The notes beneath the pieces were generated by a model, which was given only the letters and a program-made list of their open reading frames with translations, was not told the origin of the DNA and did not search any database. Below are positions 15,275-19,070 of a stretch of DNA of 49,392 nucleotides, in pieces. Numbering within the stretch: position 1 is the first letter of the stretch; each line of letters opens with the position of its first letter. This DNA comes from Acidobacterium sp. (GTDB lineage Bacteria; Acidobacteriota; Vicinamibacteria; Vicinamibacterales; UBA2999): the NCBI GenBank assembly GCA_002737365.1, contig NSIL01000019.1, positions 1 through 49,392 of the forward strand, given 5' to 3'. The position numbers were made by a program, and so were the translations under genes.

Positions 15275-16086
15275 CGACACGAACACTCTGTTTGGCACTC
15301 GCGCTCACCATCGGCTCGGTTGCCTACGCCCAGGAACCGAAGAAACCGTTCGCGCCCACCAACGGGCAAGCGGGCAAAGACGTGGTGTGGGTGCCGTCGA
15401 CACCGGGCATGGTCAACAAGATGCTCGCGATGGCCAAGGTCACGCCGGATGATTTCGTGATGGACCTGGGCTCCGGCGATGGCCGCAACATCATTGCCGC
15501 CGCCAGGCTCGGCGCCCGCGCGCTCGGTGTGGAGTTCAACCCCGACATGGTGGCGCTGTCGCGCCAGCTCGCCGCCGAGGCCGGTGTCGCCGACAAGGCG
15601 CAGTTTGTCGAAGGCGACATGTATGCCGCCGACATCTCGAAGGCCACTGTGCTGGCGCTGTTCCTGCTACCGGTCAACCTGAACCGGCTGATGCCCAAGT
15701 TTCTCGAGATGGCGCCTGGGTCGCGCATTGCCGGCAACACTTTCGGCATCGACGACTGGTACCCGGATGATCACTTCACCCTCGACGAAAGCACCGACTG
15801 CACCAGCTTTTGTGAGGCCTTGCTCTGGATTGTCCCGGCCAAGGCGGCCGGCACCTGGACAATGGCGAACGGCAGCCTGACGCTGACGCAGAAGTTTCAG
15901 ATGATCCAGGGCTCGATCGCGACCGAGGATGGCACGCATCCGATTGCGAGTACGGCGCTGAGGGGCGCTGACATCAACTTCATCGCCGGCGGCCTCACCT
16001 ATACCGGTACGATCAACGGCAACCAGATTGAGGGAACCGTGATGACCCCCTCGGGGCCGGCACCGTGGAAGGCGACCAAGAGCTAG
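15271..16086 (+). CDS. SAM-dependent methyltransferase with an N-terminal signal peptide
   Basis: Class I methyltransferase fold: motif I DLGSGDGRNIIAAARLGA (about residue 67) with the acidic loop GVEFNPDMVALSR and VEGDMYAADIS. It begins MTTRTLCLALALTIGSVAYAQ, a convincing Sec signal, so the protein is apparently exported although SAM is cytoplasmic. The last ~90 residues (GTWTMANGSLTLTQKF...GLTYTGTINGNQIEGTV) are beta-rich and lipocalin-like. The start at 15271 uses the ATGA overlap; an ATG at 15262 is possible. Its stop shares the CTAG palindrome with the opposite-strand gene. The substrate is unknown. Confidence 0.8.
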   Translation: MTTRTLCLALALTIGSVAYAQEPKKPFAPTNGQAGKDVVWVPSTPGMVNKMLAMAKVTPDDFVMDLGSGDGRNIIAAARLGARALGVEFNPDMVALSRQLAAEAGVADKAQFVEGDMYAADISKATVLALFLLPVNLNRLMPKFLEMAPGSRIAGNTFGIDDWYPDDHFTLDESTDCTSFCEALLWIVPAKAAGTWTMANGSLTLTQKFQMIQGSIATEDGTHPIASTALRGADINFIAGGLTYTGTINGNQIEGTVMTPSGPAPWKATKS

Positions 16087-17354
16087 TCCTGTGCGAGCTT
16101 CTCCATCGCAATCGTGAACGCGCGGCGGCCTGCCTGCGGGTCGTAGACAATGACCGGCATCAGACGCCCGCGAATGCGATCGGGGTTTGAGCGCGCATAA
16201 CCCATGAGGGTCGCGGCCAGCAGTTGCTGCGACCCCTCGGCAATGCCGGACCTCGGCACCCCGGTCAACAGGTCGTTCAACCTCAGGTCCCAGGCCTCGC
16301 CCCACAGCAGCGCATCGACGACCGTACCCTTCACGACGTTGTGCGAGAAGTTGAAGAAGAACGAGAGTGGGGAATAAGCCGTCTCGGTGGGACGATGGCG
16401 TTCGAACGCGGCCATCAGCGCCGTCTTGTGCTTCGTGAACAGGTCCAGGAACTGGGCGCGGTCGCGGCCTGAGTCGTTCAGCGACGCGGGCGGCACGCCG
16501 ACGAAGGCCCGGGCGTCCGGCGTCAACCCATTCAACAGCGCTTCTTCGACCACCGCGCGATCACGGTTCTCAATTCCGGCCGTGACCAGGCGGTCGTACT
16601 GCCGCACGGTGGCGGCCAGCGCGAAGCACAGCCACGGATAGTCAGCGATGTTGTCGTCACGCAGGGCCACCGTGTCGCGCCCACACTGCGCCTCGAACCC
16701 AAAGCGCAGGTGGCACCCCAGGCTGGCGACGTGTCCCAGGCCGATTTTCGCCTGGTGCTCCTCGTTCAAGGTGCGAACCTTGGCCAGCAGTATCGTGAAT
16801 CCCGTCTCGTCCAACTCGTAGTGCGACGTGCCGATTAGCAGCAGCGTTTCGGCATCGGCGGCAAACTGCTGGCCACTGCCGTTGGGGCCCTGCAGCTCGT
16901 CGAGCAATTCCTGCACGCGATCGAAGTTGCGATCGGCATCGCCGTCGTCCCACACCCGCAGGGTGAGCAATTGCAGGACGTGCGCGAAGTAATAGTCGAG
17001 CAGGATCGCCAACTCGACCGTGGTCGCCGGCTCTGGCCCGCGCTGTTCGACCAGGAAGTGCAGCACGTCGACCGGAATCATGTCGGGGTTGACCTGCTGC
17101 GAGACGCCGTCCCAGTCGTGCAGCACGTGAAATCCTTCAGCGCGCGTGCGGCCGTCGTAGCTCCGGATCATGCGATCGAGCAACACCGGCTGCGCGGCCG
17201 CCTTGAACTCGTTGGCGCGCATGCTGTCGCGCAGCCGCAGCAAGGCGGCGCCCAGGTTCTTGGCACGCGCGGCGTCGGCGACAACCTCCTGCCGGGCCGA
17301 GCCGCGCAAGGCACTGCCCACGAGATGGCAGGCATGTTCGAAAGTAATCTCCAT
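16083..17354 (-). CDS. Uncharacterised, mostly alpha-helical cytoplasmic protein
   Basis: About 423 residues without signal peptide or membrane segments; no domain recognised. Conserved-looking stretches include LLDRMIRSYDGRTRAEGFHVLHDWDG split over residues ~60-85, ADAETLLLIGTSHYELDE and SFFFNFSHNVVKGTVVDALL. The composition is helical, suggesting a repeat-like scaffold. The start is placed at ATG 17354 rather than 17360 because TATTCT on this strand ends 7 nt before it. Its stop overlaps the convergent methyltransferase stop through a shared CTAG. Confidence 0.7.
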   Translation of the reverse strand: MEITFEHACHLVGSALRGSARQEVVADAARAKNLGAALLRLRDSMRANEFKAAAQPVLLDRMIRSYDGRTRAEGFHVLHDWDGVSQQVNPDMIPVDVLHFLVEQRGPEPATTVELAILLDYYFAHVLQLLTLRVWDDGDADRNFDRVQELLDELQGPNGSGQQFAADAETLLLIGTSHYELDETGFTILLAKVRTLNEEHQAKIGLGHVASLGCHLRFGFEAQCGRDTVALRDDNIADYPWLCFALAATVRQYDRLVTAGIENRDRAVVEEALLNGLTPDARAFVGVPPASLNDSGRDRAQFLDLFTKHKTALMAAFERHRPTETAYSPLSFFFNFSHNVVKGTVVDALLWGEAWDLRLNDLLTGVPRSGIAEGSQQLLAATLMGYARSNPDRIRGRLMPVIVYDPQAGRRAFTIAMEKLAQD

Positions 17355-17360
17355 CCCCAT

Positions 17361-17367
17361 TAGAATA
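17361..17367. promoter_or_regulatory. Shared divergent -10 element TAGAATA/TATTCTA
   Basis: On the plus strand TAGAAT (17361-17366) ends 6 nt before the amidase ATG at 17373. On the minus strand TATTCT (17367-17362) ends 7 nt before the ATG at 17354. One 7-bp sequence can thus serve as the -10 box of two divergent leaderless genes, whose start codons lie only 18 nt apart. No Shine-Dalgarno fits in either direction. Confidence 0.5.
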
Positions 17368-17372
17368 CCCGC

Positions 17373-19070
17373 ATGAAACGCGCTGCCACTGTTCTCGCGC
17401 TGCTGGTCTCGGTGTTTGTGCTCCTGCCCAACGGACAGGGGCGGTTTACCGTCGTCGAAGCCACCATCCCCGCGCTGCAGGTGGCCATGGCCAAGGGGCA
17501 GGTCACCTCGCGGCAGCTGGTCGAGCAGTACCTGATCCGCATCGCCACCTACGAGGACAAGTTGAACGCCGCGCTGGCGGTGAACCCGGCGGCCTTGCGG
17601 GAGGCCGACGTGCTGGATCGGGAGCGGGCGCAGGGCAAGTTACGCGGTCCGCTGCACGGCATCCCGATCGCGCTCAAGGACAACATCCACACTACCAACA
17701 TGCCGACGACCGGTGGCGCGCTCGCCTTTGCCGGCTTCGTCCCGCCGTACGAGGCGACGCTGACCAAGAACCTGGTGGCCGCCGGCGCCATCATCATCGC
17801 CAAGACCGGCCTCACCGAACTGGCGAACTGGGTCGCCGGCAATCCCACTGCGATGCCCGGCAACTACAACGCGGTCGGCGGCTTCGGGTTCAATCCCTAC
17901 GACCCGCGCCCGGATCCGCGCCCCGAGCCCGGTGACGGCCGGCCGGTGCTGCAGACCGGCGGCTCGAGCTCCGGCATCGGCACCGCCGCCAACCTGTGGG
18001 CCGGCAGTGTCGGCTCCGACACCGGCGGCTCGATCATCAGCCCCGCCAATGCCAACATGCTGGTCGGCATTCGGCCGACGATTGGCCGCATCAGCCGCTA
18101 CGGCGTCATTCCGATCACCGCCGATCACGACACCGCCGGACCGATGACGCGCACGGTGGCTGATGCGGCGATCATGCTCGGCGCCATGGAAGGGGCCTCA
18201 CCGGATCCGAACGATGCGGCCACGCGCACGTGCACGCCGCCCCCTGGCCGCGACTACACGAAGTTCCTCAATGCGGGCGGCTTGAAGGGCGCGCGCATCG
18301 GCGTGCCGCGGGCGTTTTACCTTGACCGCGTGACGCTGCCTGGTGAGAAGGAGCCGCGCGGCGGGCTGAACCCCGAGCAGGCCAAGGTGATGGCCGACGC
18401 CATTGCCGTCCTCAAGCAGCAGGGCGCCACGGTCGTAGCGCCTGCCGACTTGCCGAGCTTTGTCGCGACCGACGCCAACGACAGTTTCCCGGTGTTTGAT
18501 TACTGCTCCGGCGCGGAACACGCGAGGGGTAAGGATGCCCAGTGCACCGTGGCCTTCAAGTACGGTATGAAGCGCGACTTCAATGCATGGCTGGCGAGCC
18601 TGGGACCGTCGGCCCCGGTCAAGACGCTGACCGAGCTGCGCAACTGGAACATGGCGCACGCCAAGGCCGGCGCGATCCGCTACCAACAATCGCGTCTCGA
18701 CATCTCGGACGAGATGGATCTGGTGGCCGACAAGGCCCGCTACGATGCCGACCATGCGAAGGACCATCGCTTGAGCCGCGACCAGGGCATCGATGCCGTC
18801 TTGAGGGCCCACCAGCTCGACGCGATCATCACGCCAGGCGGCAGCGGCGCCGGAGTCGCGTCGCGCGCCGGCTATCCGATTATCGCGGTGCCCTTCGGAA
18901 TGGTGCCGAACGCTCCCAACCCGCCCCTGCCACCCGGCTTCAACGCCAGGCCGGCGCCGTTCGGGGTTGGGTTCGTCGGCGCGCAGTGCAGCGAGCCGAA
19001 GCTGCTCGAACTGGCGTACGCGTTCGAGCAGGCGACAAAGAAGCGGGTGCCACCCTCCTCAGCGCCCTGA
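17373..19070 (+). CDS. Secreted amidase-signature hydrolase
   Basis: Amidase-signature family enzyme with a Ser-cisSer-Lys triad that hydrolyses an unknown amide. An N-terminal signal peptide (MKRAATVLALLVSVFVLLPNGQG) is followed by GIPIALKDNIHTT (Lys ~102), QTGGSSSGIG (cis-Ser ~199) and the nucleophile in GSDTGGSIISPAN (Ser ~220). At 565 residues it is long for the family, with a DPRPDPRPEPGDGRP insert just before the cis-Ser loop. It is not GatA: it is exported and has no gatB/gatC neighbours. Confidence 0.88.
   Translation: MKRAATVLALLVSVFVLLPNGQGRFTVVEATIPALQVAMAKGQVTSRQLVEQYLIRIATYEDKLNAALAVNPAALREADVLDRERAQGKLRGPLHGIPIALKDNIHTTNMPTTGGALAFAGFVPPYEATLTKNLVAAGAIIIAKTGLTELANWVAGNPTAMPGNYNAVGGFGFNPYDPRPDPRPEPGDGRPVLQTGGSSSGIGTAANLWAGSVGSDTGGSIISPANANMLVGIRPTIGRISRYGVIPITADHDTAGPMTRTVADAAIMLGAMEGASPDPNDAATRTCTPPPGRDYTKFLNAGGLKGARIGVPRAFYLDRVTLPGEKEPRGGLNPEQAKVMADAIAVLKQQGATVVAPADLPSFVATDANDSFPVFDYCSGAEHARGKDAQCTVAFKYGMKRDFNAWLASLGPSAPVKTLTELRNWNMAHAKAGAIRYQQSRLDISDEMDLVADKARYDADHAKDHRLSRDQGIDAVLRAHQLDAIITPGGSGAGVASRAGYPIIAVPFGMVPNAPNPPLPPGFNARPAPFGVGFVGAQCSEPKLLELAYAFEQATKKRVPPSSAP

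Follow-up and report, generated by a model that had tools for sequence, protein, structure and literature searches.

The window analysed here is a 49,392-nt stretch of an Acidobacterium sp. genome of the order Vicinamibacterales (GenBank assembly GCA_002737365.1, contig NSIL01000019.1, positions 1 to 49,392), in which two divergent genes, one encoding an amidase-signature protein and the other a conserved protein of no recognised family (hereafter the partner), open on either side of a single TAGAATA element. We consider this element to be, in all probability, the one -10 box of a bidirectional housekeeping-sigma promoter from which both messages would be leaderless. This reading draws on the sequence and geometry of the spacer, on the recurrence of that geometry within the genus and on partial conservation at the locus itself. 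The genus set comprised nine genomes, namely the focal genome (G000) and eight congeners (G001-G008). The features concerned are as follows.

17361..17367, both strands: candidate shared -10 element with the symmetric TANNNTA core TAGAATA; G007 has the same core in the same place, G004 the same amidase-side box, and the geometry recurs in the genus.
17361..17366, plus strand: putative amidase -10 hexamer TAGAAT, 6 nt (17367-17372) ahead of ATG 17373; TAGAAT or TAAGAT stands 6-7 nt before the ATG in all five congeners in which the two genes are adjacent.
17362..17367, minus strand: putative partner -10 hexamer TATTCT, 7 nt ahead of ATG 17354; TATTCT lies 7 nt from the ATG in G007 and 13 nt from it in G003, a genome lacking the amidase next door.
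17338..17343, plus strand: weak candidate -35 of the amidase (TCGAAA), with 17 nt between it and TAGAAT, matching 9 of 12 consensus positions jointly with the -10 and lying within partner codons 4-6.
17373..19070, plus strand: amidase-signature protein of 565 aa (Pfam PF01425, E 2.7e-64) with a signal-peptide-like N-terminus (by eye); predicted leaderless, its start placed from the -10 spacing.
16083..17354, minus strand: partner gene, 423 aa from ATG 17354, mostly helical by prediction and without a Pfam or NCBIfam match; predicted leaderless (start site 17354).
17358..17360, minus strand: upstream in-frame ATG, the default yet unlikely partner start; orthologues in the genus show no similarity ahead of the codon of 17354.

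Direct reading gives CAT (17352-17354), six nucleotides, TAGAATA (17361-17367), five nucleotides and ATG (17373), the letters between the two codons being CCCCAT TAGAATA CCCGC. The opposed start codons are thus separated by 18 nt, with 6 nt between the element and the amidase ATG and 7 nt on the partner side, exactly as the initial annotation had it. TAGAATA is a TANNNTA, which reads as TANNNT on either strand with a shift of one base, and the two opposite-strand hexamers overlap reciprocally (TAGAAT at 17361-17366 on the plus strand, TATTCT at 17367-17362 on the minus strand). Both genes have the hallmark of TA-led leaderless genes, a TANNNT about 6-7 nt from the start codon: the amidase at 6 nt and the partner, counted from 17354, at 7 nt. 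By eye, no Shine-Dalgarno sequence precedes ATG 17373, and the GGGG on the partner side abuts ATG 17354 directly, too close to act as one.

Because TANNNTA reads as TANNNT on both strands, RNA polymerase could bind TAGAATA in either orientation. Transcription would begin some 6-7 nt past the element, on or beside the first base of ATG 17373 in the rightward direction and of ATG 17354 in the leftward one, placing the predicted start sites 19 bp apart. Since each start site would fall on a start codon, both mRNAs would be leaderless, and their translation would begin at an AUG at the very 5' end with no Shine-Dalgarno sequence involved. Contacts with a -35 region, if made, would lie within the first codons of the opposite gene; the amidase-side TCGAAA is not conserved in G007, which has TCAAAC there. 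One polymerase at a time would occupy the element, but under ordinary levels of activity transcription one way need not interfere with transcription the other way. From this arrangement we infer the start sites, the leaderless state of each mRNA and the exclusive occupancy by polymerase.

The geometry depends on where the partner begins. The default open reading frame list starts it at ATG 17360 (protein MGMEI...), which would leave a single nucleotide between TATTCT and the codon. In six congeners, similarity among partner orthologues starts at an ATG or GTG equivalent to 17354 (MEI, VEI, VEI, VDI, MNI and, from the DNA of G004, MDI). Because similarity begins at the equivalent codon, we prefer 17354, the start adopted by the initial annotation, and reject 17360.

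A leaderless signal is plain in the genome at large. In 449 kb of the focal genome, with 317 genes, TANNNT is most frequent at two distances upstream of the called start, 13 nt (17 genes) and 12 nt (15 genes), other positions having about 2 apiece. Among 302 genes with a divergent neighbour, drawn from 1.43 Mb of the focal genome and a congener, the same positions hold TANNNT in 20 and 28 genes, with a background of 2.7 per position. A Shine-Dalgarno peak is also present beside the TANNNT peak, and the genome is therefore mixed in its initiation signals.

The two-way geometry recurs within the genus. Pattern searches, which took ATG starts only, found CAT-N5/6-TANNNTA-N5/6-ATG at 30 places in the nine genomes, whereas the same pattern read backwards occurred at 4 and a control with the same core but shifted spacing (arms of 8-9 nt) at 5; in the focal genome alone the exact spacing pattern gave 4 matches against none backwards. 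A centred TANNNTA is uncommon, being found in 52 of 35,792 divergent-intergenic 18-mers (0.15%) as against 46 of 204,074 18-mers of sampled sequence. The 30 places are not independent and fall by eye into 16 groups, as judged from recurring N-termini and flanks. Long coding frames leave both ATGs at 12 of the 30 (7 groups), compared with none of the 5 shifted loci and none of the 12 scrambled-core loci, in which the core was changed to ATNNNAT and the arms kept; the difference from the scrambled set gives p = 0.009.

Called genes present the same picture from another direction. Of 151 called divergent pairs, five have a start gap of 0-25 nt, the focal pair included, and in all five, read by eye, opposed TANNNT hexamers overlap at 5-8 nt from either start; three have TANNNTA and two overlap in other registers. 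These five do not include a pair with a 17-nt overlap between its called frames, and the next-tightest pair (29 nt gap) has no such hexamer. The simple gene caller took 17360 for the focal gene and omitted a pair at G000:C23:97146, and pair counts are therefore lower bounds. When ATG-ATG gaps of 8-40 nt were scanned over the 1.43 Mb, the core was present in 3 of 23 two-sided matches at gaps of 15-21 nt versus 4 of 1374 others; many antisense frames of high-GC genes pass as coding in such a scan, which makes it noisy.

The initial annotation had proposed conservation of the core in related gene pairs as a check, with a mixed outcome. The partner gene is present in six of the eight other genus genomes, and in five of these six the amidase orthologue is adjacent and divergent. 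An amidase -10 box is retained in all five (G001, G002, G004, G007 and G008). The full two-way design, CAT-TCTGGC-TAGAATA-CCCTGC-ATG, stands in G007. G001 and G002 carry TTCTAAGATACGCGCATG, with an amidase TAAGAT at 6 nt and a TAGAAT 13-14 nt upstream of the partner GTG. The genes are separated by a short-repeat run in G004 and by other DNA in G008, the amidase TAGAAT or TAAGAT still lying at 6 nt; the G008 partner has a TAGAAT of its own 9 nt ahead of its GTG. The repeat run in G004 (G004:C22 ~486440-486520, L044) consists of a tandem 7-nt unit, AGTAGCC, and inverted relatives of it, and sits exactly between the amidase promoter and the partner. In the sixth congener, G003, the best amidase match is on another contig at 65% identity, and despite the absent neighbour GCAGGGTATTCTA, identical to G007, stands 13 nt ahead of the partner ATG. 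No partner match was found in G005 and G006, whose genomes are 85% and 80% complete; the amidase of G006 is represented by a C-terminal piece, 97% identical and probably cut by a contig end, so that this genome says nothing of the spacer.

The partner-protein tree, which leaves out G004 (matched in two pieces), groups G000 with G008 (91/94), G001 with G002 (84/89) and G007 with G003 (95/99). G000 and G007 thus share the exact design from two different clades. It may be an ancestral promoter that insertions later split, or it may have been gained twice; the comparison accommodates either.

Several findings weigh against a shared, doubly leaderless promoter. The exact design is kept in only one of the five adjacent-pair congeners, the core being shifted in two and split by insertion in two. 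In G001, G002, G003 and G008 the partner start is 9-14 nt away from its nearest -10, so that the partner would not be strictly leaderless there. No -35 was seen by eye for the partner gene. Divergent pairs leaderless on both sides number 8 where 5.8 are expected under independence, hardly an excess. Set against the 5 shifted loci alone, the 12 of 30 two-sided places give p = 0.14, and the scrambled core with normal arms was found at 24 places in the genus, 12 of them with loci available. Relative to expectation, however, AT exceeds TA 2.7-fold in this DNA, and the shifted control is therefore fairer than the scrambled core. Beyond the genus the signal fades: across the order (the 100 genomes G043-G142 of 120 searched) the in-phase pattern occurs at 106 places, a modest excess over 71 backward and 73 shifted, and among the 14 non-genus members of the family there is no excess (5 in phase versus 6 backward and 6 shifted, summed by eye). 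Two-sided coding was seen in 14 of 35 order matches (49 order loci), the shifted-locus control for this share being from the genus only. Hence we reject order-wide generality. The proposal of the initial annotation finds partial support, in the symmetric core in leaderless phase for both genes, in the strong leaderless signal of the genome and in recurrence at other divergent pairs of the genus and, more weakly, of the order.

Some of these points invite other explanations. The amidase could have a one-way leaderless promoter, TATTCT being a by-product of a near-symmetric -10 consensus, with the partner either served by a weaker promoter that lies within the amidase gene or simply carried along. 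TANNNT is indeed a loose motif, the sole scored promoter within 17100-17600 is rightward, and it is the amidase box that all five congeners keep while the partner side varies. We nevertheless regard this as unlikely, given that the partner ATG stands exactly 7 nt away in two lineages (G000 and G007), that the element is retained ahead of the partner in G003 and that other pairs have two-sided coding.

A nearer relative of our preferred explanation has the element driving both genes, only with leaders of 1-10 nt from start sites a few nucleotides upstream, or with the partner starting at 17360. The 9-14 nt spacing in the four congeners and the in-frame ATG at 17360 speak for it; yet the spacing in G000 and G007 is the leaderless optimum of the genome, 6-7 nt, and the upstream ATG would leave 1 nt after the -10, and we think it improbable. 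Least credible of all is chance, that is, a short AT-rich spacer between genes transcribed from elsewhere. Short divergent spacers are frequent in compact genomes and -10-like hexamers are common, but the rarity of a centred TANNNTA in divergent intergenic sequence, the 30 places in phase against 5 out of phase and the conservation across congeners make coincidence very hard to credit. A shared -10 with both messages leaderless therefore remains the explanation we favor.

Other loci with the design involve varied functions, and at recurring pairs TANNNTA is retained while the flanks vary. In the focal genome an M20 peptidase gene faces an M61 peptidase gene across a two-way core. A Na+/H+ antiporter-family gene and a small gene without a Pfam match share the design in G000, G004 and G008 (families checked in G000), as do a PLP enzyme and a metallo-beta-lactamase-superfamily protein in G007. 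An NDH2-like pyridine nucleotide oxidoreductase lies opposite a molybdopterin oxidoreductase, with long frames on both sides in G001, G002 and G004 (G001 being the genome in which families were checked); G000 and G006 have a similar element there with a single long frame, the second frame of G006 apparently being lost to a contig end. Another family of the order has QueC opposite a PTPS-domain protein, which we take to be QueD-like; three genomes retain TAGAATA there between altered flanks, frames and families having been checked in one of them (L031).

It is tempting to speculate that double-leaderless bidirectional promoters are a real class in the genus. The 17-19 nt between divergent start codons would then follow from their both occupying start sites of a single symmetric -10, and one 7-bp element would fix the choice of direction together with both translation starts. 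Such promoters could be read from genome sequence alone, and lineages may convert shared into separate promoters, or the reverse, by small insertions. We advance this tentatively, with rather less assurance than we attach to the focal promoter.

The claim does not extend to a second spacing. A 23-bp class, with the core ANNNTANNNT between divergent starts at sites other than the focal one, looked strong at first (17 places, two-sided coding in 10 of 16). The shifted control gave 12 places, 6 of 12 of them two-sided (p = 0.70), and we consequently make no claim for this class.

Two further elements were noted around leaderless -10 boxes. At an ArsR-like gene (labelled by eye, MEQASALYRLLGDEARLRLLRVLEQ), a near-palindrome such as ATCTACATTAGTAGAT covers the leaderless -10 in four genomes (G000:C14:40463-40486, L004, and places in G002, G004 and G006), and looks like an operator placed on the -10. 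The element TTGTTGATACAAT, with TACAAT 5-6 nt before an ATG, occurs in five genomes (G000:C23:98613-98637, L247, and places in G002, G004, G005 and G008); in the three genomes with loci, the ATG opens an AbrB-like gene (labelled by eye, MVVELKLRKIGNSVGVVLPKE).

The partner itself belongs to a conserved orphan family, 19 aligned members of which have many invariant His, Asp, Tyr and Trp positions. The gene is present in 25 of 99 genomes searched, the focal genome included; 27 named loci with relatives comprise 2 from Vicinamibacterales, 23 under other Acidobacteria, Acidobacteriota or Terriglobia names and 2 with other phylum labels. Searches of Pfam, NCBIfam and PDB sequences gave it no match from which to read a function, the best Pfam E value for any of the 19 members being 0.046. 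The structure model is confident and mostly helical (pLDDT 89.6). Foldseek found no match to solved structures at E up to 0.001, and VIA-align 2 returned middling Z scores only (best 5.7, rmsd 4.8 over 159 residues), by which a fold is neither assigned nor excluded.

If leaderless genes place their start codons on start sites, bidirectional promoters would become visible in uncultured lineages from sequence alone, whereas those in the work cited below were found by start-site mapping in cultured bacteria. If so, promoter gain and loss could be traced across species, as at the focal locus. The locus would also lend itself to testing as a naturally minimal system, in which a single 7-bp element would serve two leaderless genes for two proteins and leave ordinary regulators little room.

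The kind of promoter is already known, and in the literature we found the double-leaderless form is not described. Warman, Grainger and colleagues define bidirectional promoters by divergent start sites 7-25 bp apart, most often 18 (PMC10268837), and their 18-bp class has a symmetric -10 that polymerase binds two ways, with small variation in spacing (PMC12825309, PMC10268837). By our own derivation, that definition implies a TANNNTA core about 5 nt away from either start site, and the focal spacer has this form. We added a test of membership, namely that the core should recur more often than at the wrong spacing; it does so in the genus, and weakly outside. The initial annotation called the arrangement unusual, a description that gives way before this class, as those papers present it, and before the recurrence in the genus. 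Its claim that competition for polymerase would be forced becomes conditional: at the five bidirectional promoters tested in E. coli, basal transcription was too low for polymerase competition, which appeared at raised activity (PMC12825309).

Published accounts of leaderless genes supply the other half of the comparison. TA-led leaderless genes were predicted in three of three Acidobacteria genomes, 13.3% on average (PMC3160421), and a Deinococcus-Thermus form has been described (PMC12340547). Like these, the focal genes have TANNNT about 12 nt before the start codon and would need no Shine-Dalgarno sequence; unlike the focal two-way core, the published elements are described as one-way in the parts of those papers that deal with them. 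The terms divergent, bidirectional and symmetr do not occur in the main text of PMC12340547, nor "divergent" in that of PMC3160421 by one count (another count gives one occurrence). Conversely, the word "leaderless" is absent from PMC12825309 and PMC10268837, and none of the open-licence papers searched contained both "widespread divergent transcription" and "leaderless". The closest parallel is the divergent prpD / Rv1129c pair of Mycobacterium tuberculosis, for which both start sites are reported to map to start codons (PMC3898074), a position mapped there and predicted here. Taken together, the focal element resembles the 18-bp class in the reciprocal overlap of its -10 hexamers and in predicted start sites 19 bp apart, next to the commonest value of 18. 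It would differ from that class as published in that its start sites coincide with both start codons and leave no 5' untranslated region, so that the spacing of the start codons itself reports the class and allows it to be predicted from sequence.

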